From Jiella endophytica (GTDB lineage Bacteria; Pseudomonadota; Alphaproteobacteria; Rhizobiales; Rhizobiaceae): a stretch of DNA of 64,000 bases. Below, piece by piece: positions 49,943-55,662 of the stretch (position 1 is its first letter; every line of letters begins with the position of its first letter). The stretch covers positions 558,001-622,000 of the forward strand of contig NZ_SOZD01000002.1 in assembly GCF_004519335.1 (NCBI RefSeq), written 5' to 3'. The notes beneath the pieces are model-generated. The model made no database searches, had not been told where the DNA came from, and was given only the letters and a program-made list of their open reading frames with translations. The translations under genes and the position numbers were made by a program.

Positions 49943-49966
49943 AGGGGGCCGTATGGCCCCCTTCTT
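49943..49966 (+). terminator. rho-independent terminator of aapJQMP
   Basis: AGGGGGCC (49943-49950) / GGCCCCCT (49955-49962), GTAT loop, followed by TCTT. About 105 nt after the aapP stop. The remaining gap to 50108 shows nothing else. Confidence 0.8.
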
Positions 49967-50108: not shown

Positions 50109-53100
50109 ATGTCGGGCAGGATCACGGGAGGGCTGCTGGCGCTCGCCATCGGCATTTCGGCTTCGAGCTCTGCGACGGCCGCCTGCAGCGCCCTTCAGGA
50201 TACGCCACAGGTGCCGACCGATCTCTCGCTCTGCCAGAAGCTCGAGCCGGTGGTGAAGCGGCCGGCGGCGCTGCCGCTGAACGAATATGAGGAAGCCCTC
50301 AACCAGTATTTCGGACATTTCTGTCACCGCGACGCCAAGGCCGGCTGGGTGCGCGACAAATATGTCCGCGACACCGGCCCCTATGTCGCCAATCTTGCGG
50401 GCGGCACCTGGAGCGGCAAGGACTTCGGCACCCATGCGCCGGTCGTCATCTGGTATTCGCCCGATTTCGTGAAGTGGCTGAAGGTCGCAAGGCCGGCAGA
50501 CGAGGCCGCCCGCCCCGCCGAGGAACCGCCGGTTCCCGACGGGGCGATGATCGTCAAGGAGATGTATCCGGCCCCCGCGGCGCTGTGCGCCAAGGAGGAT
50601 CCGCTGATGCTGAAGCCGACCAGCGGCGCCGCCTTCATGGTGCGCGACGCCGAGGCTTCGCATGACGGCTGGTACTGGGGCTGGTACGGCTGGAGCGACG
50701 ATCCGAAGGCCAATATCGACTGGCCGCCGCGGCCCTCCAACGGCCTTCCCTATCAGGGCTTCGGCCAGTACTGCCTCAACTGCCACGCCTCGGCGGTGAG
50801 CAACTCGACCTTTTCCAACCTCTCCAACATCGAGGGCGAGCCCGGCCGGCCGATCAGCTTCCTGTCGCAGGATTTCGCCCTCGATCTTGGCGCCGAGCCC
50901 CACCATCTGGCTCTGACCGAGCTGCCCCCGGCGGTCGACGATCCGAAGCCTTCGCCCGGCGAGCTCAATGCCGACGTCGCCAGGCTCTTCGACTACGTCT
51001 TCGCCTCGCTGCCGAAGCCGATCGACGCGCTCCAGATGCCGTCGGCGAGCTACGACACCGTCTGGGTGAAGGAGCATCGCGAAACCACCGCCAAGAGCCA
51101 ATATCTCACCTCGGACCAGTGCGTCGGCTGTCACGACGCCGGCAGCACCGGGTTGCAGTTCGACATGACCAGGCCGGCACCGGTCGATCAGGTGCACAAT
51201 CCCGACGGCACCAAGCTGATCAACATGTCGCCCTACGGCACCTGGCGGAACTCGCCAATGGGGCTTGCCGGCCGCGACCCGATCTTCTTTTCGCAGCTCG
51301 CCAGCGAGACCCAGAGCTTCCATCCGGACGTCTCGCCAGAGGTCCAGTCGATCTGCCTCGGCTGCCACGGCATCCAGGGTCAGCGGCAGTTCCAGCTCGA
51401 CGACCATCTGAAGACCGGTAGCTGCCCGGATTTCGAGCGCGCCATGGCCGATGCGGTGCCCTATCCGCCCGGCAATCCGTCGGCGAAACTCGCCGATTTC
51501 GGCGCGCTCGCCCGCGACGGCATTTCCTGCACCGCCTGCCATCACGCGATCTTCAAGGATGCCGACGTCGCCGAGGCGAATGGCAGCCCGGCCAATCGCT
51601 GTGTCCTCGATAGGCAGGACCAGCTCAATCCGAAAAATCTCGCCGAGGGCTTCGCCCGCACCTTCACCGGCAGCTATTTCGTCGGCCCGGCCGACCAGCT
51701 GAAGGGCCCGTTCGAGCACCCGAAGCAGGTGCCGATGAAGAACGCCCTCGGCATCACGCCCGGCCACGACGACAGCTTCCTGAAGTCCGACCTTTGCGGC
51801 AGCTGCCATACGGTGCATCTGCCGGTGCTCGATCGGGGCAAGCTCCTCGGCTACACCTTCGAGCAGACCACCTATCCCGAATGGGCGTTCAGCGACTATC
51901 GCACCGGCGTCACGGCGAATGGCGAACTGCCGCTCGGCGCCGGACCCAAGGCGGAAAGCTGCCAGGGCTGCCACATGAAGTCGAAGGACGACGCCGGCAA
52001 TCCGCTGGTCTCGAAGATCGCCAGCATCCAGGAGCACAGCAGTTTCCCCGAGGTGGAAAACGGCCTCGGTCCGGATGTCCTGGACCTCGAACGCCGGGCG
52101 AATTTCGCCCTCCACACGCTGGTCGGGCTCAATGTCTTCCTGATCGAGATGGCCGACCAGTTTCCGGATTTCCTCGGCATCGCCGTCCAGGATCCGATGC
52201 TGGTCTCGAAGGGCATCGACAACATCGTCACCACCCGGAACAAGATGCTCGAAAATGCCGAGGGCCTCTCCGCCTCGATCGCGGTGACCTCCTTGTCCGA
52301 AGACGCCGGGCATCTGAAGGCGAAGGTGCAGATCGCCTCGAAGGTGGGTCACAAGTTTCCCTCGGGCGTCGGCTTCCGCCGGGCCTTCGTCGAGTTCCGC
52401 GCCCTCGATGCAGAGGGGAAGGCGCTGTGGACCTCCGGCGGGACGAACGGAGCCGGGGTGATCGTCAACGGCAAGGGCGAGCCGCTCCCCGGCGAGCTCT
52501 GGTGGACACCCGACTGCTCGGCCCGGATCGCGCCGCTGGAGCGGCGCCACCAGCCGCACTACCAGACGATCAGCTCCGAGGACGAGGCGCAGATCTATCA
52601 GGAACTCGTCTCGACGCCGGCGCCTTCCGGCGCGCCCTCCTGCGGCCACGACGCGGCGCCTGCCGGCCAGCTGACGACGAGCTTTTTGTCGATCTGCAGC
52701 CATGTGAAGGACAATCGCATCCTGCCCTCGGGCTATCTGCCGTTCGAGCAGCGCGTCCGGATCGCCAATGCCCTCGGCTCGAAGGGCGAGGCGCTGGCCG
52801 AGGATACCGGTTCAGTCGGTGTCGGCGACGATCCCGACTATGTCACTGGCGGTGGCGACACGATCACCTACGACATCGAGACGGCGAAGCTGTCCGGGCC
52901 GGTCGCGAGCGTCGAGGCGACGCTCTACTACCAGGCGATCCCGCCCTTCTACCTGCAGGACCGCTTCTGCACCGCCAAGGGCACCGACCGCGACCGCCTC
53001 GCCTATCTGACCAGCAAGCTCGAACTTGCCGATACGCTGGCGGCCGACTGGAAGCTGAAGATGGTGTCGGCCGCCTGCTCCAAATCGCCGGCGGGGGGCG

Positions 53101-53168
53101 CTGGCAAGACTGGCGCAGACGCCGCGAAGGGCAGTGCCGTCAACGCCAGCGCCGTCTGCCCTCAGTGA
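50109..53168 (+). CDS. secreted multiheme c-type cytochrome with N-terminal P460-like domain
   Basis: Exported 1019-aa protein. A signal peptide ends near residue 25 (SATAA). Six heme c motifs CXXCH begin at Cys222 (CLNCH), 338 (CVGCH), 416 (CLGCH), 474 (CTACH), 563 (CGSCH) and 618 (CQGCH). Residues about 55-230 resemble the cytochrome P460/c'-beta family: DGAMIVKEMY, AFMVRDAEASHDGWYWGWYG and the closing CLNCH. The C-terminal half has the multiheme-cytochrome motif GHKFPSGVGFRR at 747 and a beta-rich tail. ATG 50109 follows GGAGG. Predicted periplasmic electron-transfer protein, possibly acting on nitrogen oxides or hydroxylamine, which is inference only. No maturation or partner genes adjoin. 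Confidence 0.8.
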   Translation: MSGRITGGLLALAIGISASSSATAACSALQDTPQVPTDLSLCQKLEPVVKRPAALPLNEYEEALNQYFGHFCHRDAKAGWVRDKYVRDTGPYVANLAGGTWSGKDFGTHAPVVIWYSPDFVKWLKVARPADEAARPAEEPPVPDGAMIVKEMYPAPAALCAKEDPLMLKPTSGAAFMVRDAEASHDGWYWGWYGWSDDPKANIDWPPRPSNGLPYQGFGQYCLNCHASAVSNSTFSNLSNIEGEPGRPISFLSQDFALDLGAEPHHLALTELPPAVDDPKPSPGELNADVARLFDYVFASLPKPIDALQMPSASYDTVWVKEHRETTAKSQYLTSDQCVGCHDAGSTGLQFDMTRPAPVDQVHNPDGTKLINMSPYGTWRNSPMGLAGRDPIFFSQLASETQSFHPDVSPEVQSICLGCHGIQGQRQFQLDDHLKTGSCPDFERAMADAVPYPPGNPSAKLADFGALARDGISCTACHHAIFKDADVAEANGSPANRCVLDRQDQLNPKNLAEGFARTFTGSYFVGPADQLKGPFEHPKQVPMKNALGITPGHDDSFLKSDLCGSCHTVHLPVLDRGKLLGYTFEQTTYPEWAFSDYRTGVTANGELPLGAGPKAESCQGCHMKSKDDAGNPLVSKIASIQEHSSFPEVENGLGPDVLDLERRANFALHTLVGLNVFLIEMADQFPDFLGIAVQDPMLVSKGIDNIVTTRNKMLENAEGLSASIAVTSLSEDAGHLKAKVQIASKVGHKFPSGVGFRRAFVEFRALDAEGKALWTSGGTNGAGVIVNGKGEPLPGELWWTPDCSARIAPLERRHQPHYQTISSEDEAQIYQELVSTPAPSGAPSCGHDAAPAGQLTTSFLSICSHVKDNRILPSGYLPFEQRVRIANALGSKGEALAEDTGSVGVGDDPDYVTGGGDTITYDIETAKLSGPVASVEATLYYQAIPPFYLQDRFCTAKGTDRDRLAYLTSKLELADTLAADWKLKMVSAACSKSPAGGAGKTGADAAKGSAVNASAVCPQ

Positions 53169-54393: not shown

Positions 54394-54501
54394 TCGCTGT
54401 CACAGCCGTGAATTGCAGGAACCGCGCATCACTCCTACGATAGCGCGTCGCCGTCGGTGGCCTTCACGGCAGGCCGCGGCGACCCGAAGGAGGATCCCGA
54501 G

Positions 54502-55662
54502 ATGCGCGAGCAGAAGCGGCTGGTCGTCTGTTTCGACGGCACCTGGAACAATGCCGACACCAGCGGCGAGACCGCGACGAATGTCGAGCGCATCGCCAGG
54601 GCGGTGCGCGGCGACAGCGGCGACATTCCGCAGATCACCCTTTATCTGCGCGGCGTCGGCTCGACAGGCTACCGCCTGCAGCGGATCATCGACGGGGCGA
54701 CGGGCCTCGGCGTCGACGACAACATCCGCTCGGCCTATCAGTTTCTCGCCCAGAACTATCTGCCCGAGCGGGGTGACGGCGATGGCGGCACGATCCCGGC
54801 CGACGAGATCTTCCTCTTCGGCTTTTCCCGTGGCGCCTTCTCGGCCCGCTCGCTCGCCGGCTTCATTTCGACGTCCGGCCTGTTGAAGCGCCAGCAGCTC
54901 GACGATCTCGCCGACGCCTGGCGCTACTATCGCGAGCGAGGCGACGACAAGAACTCCAAAAGCTTCTGCGAAGCGAGCGGCAGCGACTGCCATCACGACC
55001 CCGAGATCAAGTTCGTCGGGGTATGGGATACGGTCGGTGCGCTCGGCATTCCGACCTCGACGATCGACCTGCCGCTGCTCGAGGAAGACTACGCCTTTCA
55101 CGACACGACGCCGTCGAGGATCGTCAGACATGCCTATCACGGGCTTGCCATCGACGAGCATCGCGACGAATTCGTGCCGACGCTGTGGACCGGCGAGGTG
55201 CCGGAAGGCGCGACGATCGAGCAGGTCTGGTTTGCCGGCGCCCATTCCGATGTCGGCGGCGGCTACACCAACCGCGAACTCGCCGACATTCCGCTGAACT
55301 GGATGGCCGAAAAGGCCAAGGCATGCGGCCTCGACCTCGACGACAGCCTGCTCCCCTCACCTGCCACGCTGAACGTATTGGCCGCGCAGCACGAGTCGCG
55401 GGTCTCATTCGGGCTGAAGGACCGCCTCACCCCGACCATCCGCACGATCAGAAGCCGGGATTTCGACACCAGCTGGCGCGAGCGCGCCTATCGCCCGGTC
55501 GACGAAAACGGCAATCCGCTCCGGCCGCTCAACGAAGCGGTGCACGAAAGCGCCAAGAGGCGGTTCGGCAAGACCGCCAGCCTCATCATCGGCGACGACA
55601 ATTCGACGTCCGAGGACACGATCTACGAACCGAAGAATCTCGGCGCGGCGCTCAGGGCCTGA
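54502..55662 (+). CDS. DUF2235 domain-containing alpha/beta hydrolase
   Basis: A 386-residue serine-hydrolase-fold protein. Start KRLVVCFDGTWNN is diagnostic; GFSRGAFSARSLAGF supplies a GxSxG nucleophile; later WDTVGALGIP, and the FAGAHSDVGGGY motif containing the catalytic His/Asp. The family includes Tle1-type phospholipase effectors of type VI secretion systems, but this one is alone, with no vgrG or immunity gene nearby, and has no signal peptide. ATG 54502 has AAGGAGG upstream. Confidence 0.88.
   Translation: MREQKRLVVCFDGTWNNADTSGETATNVERIARAVRGDSGDIPQITLYLRGVGSTGYRLQRIIDGATGLGVDDNIRSAYQFLAQNYLPERGDGDGGTIPADEIFLFGFSRGAFSARSLAGFISTSGLLKRQQLDDLADAWRYYRERGDDKNSKSFCEASGSDCHHDPEIKFVGVWDTVGALGIPTSTIDLPLLEEDYAFHDTTPSRIVRHAYHGLAIDEHRDEFVPTLWTGEVPEGATIEQVWFAGAHSDVGGGYTNRELADIPLNWMAEKAKACGLDLDDSLLPSPATLNVLAAQHESRVSFGLKDRLTPTIRTIRSRDFDTSWRERAYRPVDENGNPLRPLNEAVHESAKRRFGKTASLIIGDDNSTSEDTIYEPKNLGAALRA

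Follow-up and report, generated by a model that had tools for sequence, protein, structure and literature searches.

The gene described here lies in a window of 64,000 nucleotides of the Jiella endophytica genome (contig NZ_SOZD01000002.1, positions 558,001 to 622,000), and all positions below are those of the window. The plus-strand frame 50109-53168 encodes a protein of 1019 amino acids (aa) that consists of an apparent signal peptide, a cytochrome P460-family domain, a pentaheme module and a beta-rich tail. If translation began at an alternative in-frame ATG (position 49953), the protein would have 1071 aa; however, a GGAGG-rich stretch precedes the ATG at 50109. An initial annotation, made from the sequence, had reported a signal peptide, six CXXCH motifs, a GHKFPSG motif and a beta-rich tail. 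All of these are present in the 1019-aa translation, the signal peptide as an apparent one recognized by eye. When the protein was shuffled 1000 times, CXXCH occurred 0.015 times on average and at most 2 times, compared with the 6 observed.

The N-terminal domain matches Pfam Cytochrome_P460 (PF16694) at residues 133-230 (E 1.7e-8, 35.3 bits with a cut-off of 27), which places it in the family, and the match spans the first CXXCH. The P460 region had originally been drawn from residue 25 to 230. Thus a significant match exists within that span, but only from residue 133 onward. No other protein of the 5.25-Mb J. endophytica genome matches PF16694. An alignment and profile were made from 31 N-terminal domains of the fusion family, of which 26 match PF16694 at E<=0.01. 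In a search of the PDB this profile detects M. capsulatus P460 (9hrk, E 6.5e-7; 6hiu, E 8.8e-7), and chains of the cytochrome c′-beta group (6hih and others) follow at E 0.07-0.11. An hhalign comparison of the domain with 11 stand-alone P460s gives a probability of 97.6 and E 3.8e-12. The model of the isolated domain has a pLDDT of 85.0 and a pTM of 0.83.

Two outcomes had been named in the initial annotation as speaking against a P460 domain: lack of a significant profile match, and a first CXXCH that belongs to the multiheme module. PF16694 scores over its cut-off. Assignment of the first CXXCH to the multiheme module was rejected, as both the Pfam match and the PDB profile matches extend through this motif. 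Neither of the two outcomes was thus observed. The sequence evidence is taken as enough to establish P460-family homology of the N-terminal domain; the Foldseek match of the isolated domain is weak.

The remainder of the chain is a module with five CXXCH motifs and a beta-rich tail, and in the structure model it has the c552/PHC-type fold. The full-chain model has a pLDDT of 90.1 and a pTM of 0.90, and its sole PDB match at E<=0.001 in Foldseek is 5ze8, the pentaheme cytochrome c552 of Thermochromatium tepidum (E 1.7e-10, probability 1.00, TMt 0.64, TMq 0.27, root-mean-square deviation 7.1 over 643 alignment columns, 12% identity). A sequence profile of the module also finds 5ze8 in the PDB, at E 9.4e-9. 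Cytochrome c552 resembles the proposed PHC family, which comprises ExtKL, Gsu2801 and cable-bacteria proteins; in the accessible text of PMC11976967, PHC proteins are counted among potentially catalytic cytochromes, fusions of PHC with truncated hemoglobin are proposed as terminal oxidases, and c552 itself is given no clear role. An outer-membrane cytochrome of the MtrC/MtrF type was rejected, since PF22113 reaches 26.3 bits with a cut-off of 30. The ExtKL model NF040886 scores 13.5 bits with a cut-off of 250, and all other NCBIfam models likewise stay below their cut-offs on the 1019-aa protein. It should be noted that one of the 32 module sequences in a separate alignment weakly matches PF16694 (E 0.001), even though these sequences had been trimmed of the P460 domain.

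The spread of the fusion was surveyed, as had been suggested, and by record title it extends over several bacterial phyla. When 84,980 species genomes were scanned, at least 588 pattern matches were obtained, of which 524 are confirmed relatives, and the best 80 loci were kept. Of these loci, 78 have six CXXCH motifs, and the remaining two (L068, L078) start at a contig end or close to one. The window protein was aligned with 68 relatives; these come from 67 loci of the 80, as L077 contributed two genes. Ten of the 13 omitted loci are close copies of others and three are cut by contig ends, and two plasmid loci were also left out. All 69 rows carry all six CXXCH motifs. Eight phyla are named in their record titles, although metagenome bins are numerous among them and some of the labels seem to be incorrect. 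Among the named records of the scan, the closest are four of Jiella, with 81-84% identity. Across the alignment, pairwise identity in the P460 part is correlated with pairwise identity in the heme part (r 0.85) and in the tail (r 0.86). Ten pairwise ratios of nonsynonymous to synonymous substitution rates among five Jiella-group genes lie between 0.13 and 0.27. Because the six motifs are kept in every row, the distances of the parts are correlated and these ratios are low, the fusion is a conserved single unit. The initial proposal of a P460-family domain and a separate multiheme module joined in one chain is thus borne out.

The distribution is patchy. Of 385 genomes of the class, 14 contain relatives at E<=1e-10: the J. 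endophytica genome, ten others with a six-CXXCH frame, one with a frame interrupted by a stop (G338) and two with fragments only (G034, G247). Within the genus 8 of 10 genomes have the gene, and within the family 4 of 121. When 299 genomes of the phylum were searched in six frames, the profile of the module matched at nine places in seven genomes, and six of these places lie in frames 1033-1109 aa long. In the same set PF16694 is found at 41 places in 30 genomes, three of the places being in frames of that length, and so recovers three of the six fused genes. The phage collection gave no match. Two plasmid records have matches, annotated as “hypothetical protein” (fused) and “cytochrome c family protein” (without P460).

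Relatives with five CXXCH motifs and the tail but without a P460 domain are a 555-aa cytochrome of Sulfurovum mangrovi (L022) and two adjoining genes (L113). These are far from the fused branch and on long branches. In a FastTree phylogeny of the module, a branch (98) separates the 69 fused rows from two P460-less rows, with a long-branch warning at that point. The two adjacent genes (L113:1951-5915) belong to genome G516, where a fused copy (L114) is present as well, and are useful for tracing the fusion. Copies labelled Mycobacterium sp. KBS0706 (L036) and Mesoflavibacter sp. ih5 (L071) branch among alphaproteobacterial ones, and these labels may be wrong.

The distal features of P460s given in the accessible portion of a 2025 review (PMC11928373) are a cross-linking lysine (Lys70, Lys78, Lys106), a carboxylate, and a Phe or Arg cap. 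The carboxylate is Glu96 or Asp102 in two active P460s and is replaced by Ala131 in the inactive NsP460, in which its introduction brings activity (PMC11928373, same portion). Alignment with 6hiu pairs K150 of the window protein with Lys78 and A175 with Asp102, and the carboxylate column is fixed also by NsP460 (6amg) and its A131E form (6e17), which give the same column. A lysine for the heme cross-link had been sought; K150 stands at that position and Lys is kept in 68 of the 69 rows. The exception is the divergent second gene of L077 (L077:1575-4952), from one Acidobacteria bin, in which the six CXXCH motifs and His109 are kept and Ala replaces Lys150. Column 175 holds Ala in 43 rows, Thr in 17, Val in 7, Ser in 1 and Leu in 1, and an acid in none. 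The column of Arg44/Arg50 has no Arg in the 69 rows (V in 60), whereas 13 of 18 stand-alone P460s have Arg there. In the same 18 proteins, used as a control, Lys is present in 10 at the lysine column, and the carboxylate column has an acid in 2 and Gln in 9. The lysine is thus better kept in the fusion than in the stand-alone proteins. Because NsP460 also lacks the carboxylate and is inactive, its absence bears on activity and not on P460 family membership. The cytochrome c′-beta identity was rejected, as K150 is present at the cross-link position.

His109 is invariant in the 69 rows. The hhalign alignment with stand-alone P460s begins after this residue and pairs Pro118, nine residues further on, with a Pro of the stand-alone proteins. 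In NsP460 the capping Phe76 is ten residues before the corresponding Pro. His109 is therefore predicted to be at, or within one residue of, the cap. In the module, the extra conserved His residues are few (669, 748 and 817), and some of its five hemes may therefore have Met or no sixth ligand.

Table 1. Position of the fusion gene and of its parts in the window.
Feature	Position	Strand	Evidence
Whole gene, 1019 aa	50109..53168	+	Translation, Pfam, structure model
Apparent signal peptide, about residues 1-25	50109..50183	+	Judged by eye, no predictor
P460-family domain, residues 45-250	50241..50858	+	PF16694 E 2.3e-8 for the stretch; profile and hhalign; isolated-domain Foldseek weak
His109 codon, invariant, probably at or within one residue of the P460 capping position	50433..50435	+	69/69 rows; spacing
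Lys150 codon, aligned with cross-linking Lys78 of M. capsulatus P460	50556..50558	+	68/69 rows; alignment
Ala175 codon, site of Glu/Asp in active P460s	50631..50633	+	0/69 acids; alignment
CXXCH 1 (222-226), P460-domain heme	50772..50786	+	Sequence, Pfam match, 69-row alignment
CXXCH 2 (338-342), pentaheme module	51120..51134	+	Sequence, 69-row alignment
CXXCH 3 (416-420)	51354..51368	+	Sequence, 69-row alignment
CXXCH 4 (474-478)	51528..51542	+	Sequence, 69-row alignment
CXXCH 5 (563-567)	51795..51809	+	Sequence, 69-row alignment
CXXCH 6 (618-622)	51960..51974	+	Sequence, 69-row alignment
Pentaheme module and beta-rich tail, residues 320-1000, c552/PHC-type fold, GHKFPSG 747-753	51066..53108	+	Profile, model, Foldseek

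Upstream of the gene is a set of amino-acid-type ABC transporter genes, and downstream is a gene of the Exo_endo_phos family. No functional link of these flanking genes to the cytochrome was seen. An operon with the ABC transporter was set aside: a terminator-like hairpin is found at 49943-49962, and clusters of binding-protein and permease genes accompany the fusion at four Jiella loci only. However, terminator-like sites in the stretch of the hairpin barely exceed chance (4 found, 2.4 expected). Neighbouring genes were clustered over 82 loci (L021-L102), many of which have short flanks, and the output consists mostly of shadow frames. The real neighbours that could be recognized as recurring are an EamA transporter at 7 loci, a cluster of general ABC transporters at 19, and at 12 a cluster that was named dehydrogenase-like by eye; no gene recurs at most of the 82 loci. 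The earlier remark that the surrounding genes give no clue agrees with this result, and the absence of a recurring neighbour suits a self-contained enzyme.

The EamA-family gene adjoins the fusion on the same strand, upstream at L034, L038, L045, L048, L053 and L056 and downstream at L028. Six of the seven cases are in one part of the tree, and Pfam confirms four of the seven. On a Paracoccus seriniphilus plasmid (L021:15587-23211) the fusion is near genes for a Na+-translocating NADH-quinone reductase, an FAD:protein FMN transferase and a protein of the cytochrome c3 family. Elsewhere in the window, the gene at 54457-55659 has a strong match to the catalytic domain of Tle1-like phospholipases (PF09994).

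The fusion protein is taken, with moderate confidence, to be a wired periplasmic redox enzyme for a small molecule, with the P460 heme as putative binding site. It would be exported to the periplasm, and by homology the P460-family domain would carry one heme c on C222-x-x-C225-H226. From its position, Lys150 is expected to cross-link this heme as in cytochromes P460. In the alignment the distal pocket has Ala175 and no proton-accepting carboxylate, and the invariant His109 is probably placed over the iron. The pentaheme module, given its modelled fold, may serve as an electron relay that connects the P460 heme to an external redox partner. A heme supplied with electrons by such a module suits the reduction or removal of nitric oxide (NO) or peroxide. 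This direction is preferred to an oxidation of hydroxylamine (NH2OH), which is a choice and not a result, and as a specific claim it is made with low confidence. It is conceivable, though doubtful, that the family is a new enzyme class in several phyla, with a Lys-cross-linked P460 heme, a His cap, no carboxylate and a hard-wired pentaheme conduit of the nanowire-related kind, which would carry out a reaction of NO, peroxide or another small molecule that is not known from stand-alone P460s or from hydroxylamine oxidoreductase (HAO).

Several observations weigh against this interpretation. In the profile search of the PDB with the N-terminal domains, an unrelated immunoglobulin-receptor chain is found at E 5.8e-4. 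With the isolated domain, Foldseek gives P460 chains only at E >=0.16, with probabilities <=0.30 and TMt <=0.37, and unrelated chains outrank them; with the whole chain no P460 chain is found among the top 50. The profile match to 5ze8 comes mostly from the GHKFPSG region of the tail, and the heme stretches score little. The missing acid is not peculiar to the fusion, as most of the aligned stand-alone P460s also lack it, and the likely position of His109 at the cap is drawn from spacing. Copper nitrite reductase, the one NO source and nitrogen-cycle gene looked for in the J. endophytica genome, gave no match there.

Other functions were considered. Oxidation of hydroxylamine by the P460 heme, as in Nitrosomonas europaea P460, with the module taking up the electrons, would agree with the P460 homology and the cross-link lysine, and an attached electron acceptor suits an oxidase. 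However, the carboxylate of the active NeP460 and McP460 (PMC11928373, accessible portion) is absent in all 69 members, and because it is missing such oxidation is improbable by the known rules for P460s. In principle its role could fall to His109 or to some other residue. This function, raised in the initial annotation, is thus not supported and is considered quite unlikely. A role as a pure electron carrier would make His109 the sixth ligand of the iron, with all six hemes only carrying electrons, perhaps to extracellular acceptors, as has been discussed for ECN and PHC relatives. The invariance of His109 fits this role, as does the c552 fold, which is related to archaeal nanowire subunits according to PMC11976967 (accessible text), citing Baquero et al. 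However, a carrier has no evident need for a cross-link lysine, genes for an outer-membrane conduit are not among the recurring neighbours, and the MtrC/MtrF domain match is below its cut-off. A carrier role is therefore regarded as quite unlikely.

A module that binds or senses gas, i.e., an NO trap like cytochrome c′-beta in which the pentaheme part only sets the redox state, was also considered. The lysine kept in nearly all rows argues against it, being absent from the three c′-beta proteins tabled in the accessible portion of PMC11928373. Pfam finds no signalling domain in the protein, and no regulator recurs in the neighbour clustering. Gas binding or sensing is thus considered quite unlikely, and the wired redox enzyme is preferred.

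Both parts of the protein belong to known families, and their join is the new part. The multiheme protein had been put forward as something undescribed. This holds for the fusion, which was found nowhere in the literature searched, a coverage that mostly leaves out subscription journals; the module itself is of a known kind with the c552 fold. In the accessible portion of PMC11928373 the words “fusion” and “domain” do not occur and “multiheme” occurs in the reference list only, and P460 is never mentioned (0 occurrences) in the available text of PMC11976967. The finding has a practical side, as a PF16694 gene is taken as evidence of hydroxylamine-to-N2O conversion in at least one survey (PMC9938248, accessible part). 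By that criterion some fusion members, including the window protein, would be included, despite lacking a residue on which the known active enzymes depend. The family is also a natural experiment on what a cross-linked P460 heme does when its distal residue differs and an electron relay is built in.

The fusion has in common with the cytochromes P460 (NeP460, 2je3; McP460, 6hiu; NsP460 of Nitrosomonas sp. AL212, 6amg) the profile-level homology, a C-terminal CXXCH in the domain and the lysine at the cross-link position, and with the inactive NsP460 also Ala at the carboxylate position. However, the solved P460s are short chains (144-219 aa or less) with one CXXCH, to which the fusion adds the pentaheme module, while it lacks the carboxylate and the Arg of the Arg44/Arg50 column. 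Its invariant His appears to lie at or beside the capping position, whereas known P460 caps are Phe or Arg (PMC11928373, accessible portion).

HAO is an octaheme enzyme. As in the fusion, it combines a P460-type heme with other hemes in one enzyme, but its cross-link is a tyrosine and it is structurally unrelated to cytochrome P460 (PMC11928373, same portion). With the PHC cytochromes (T. tepidum c552, Geobacter ExtKL and Gsu2801, cable-bacteria sPHC and lPHC), of which only 5ze8 was compared directly, the fusion has in common the predicted module fold, five CXXCH motifs and a beta-rich domain. A parallel by description is lPHCtX of cable bacteria, which likewise joins a PHC module to a ligand-binding heme domain and is proposed to be a terminal oxidase; this domain is a truncated hemoglobin and not a P460, and in the accessible text of PMC11976967 it is described only from cable bacteria. 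P460 would be the second ligand-binding heme domain, after truncated hemoglobin, to be joined to a PHC-type module.

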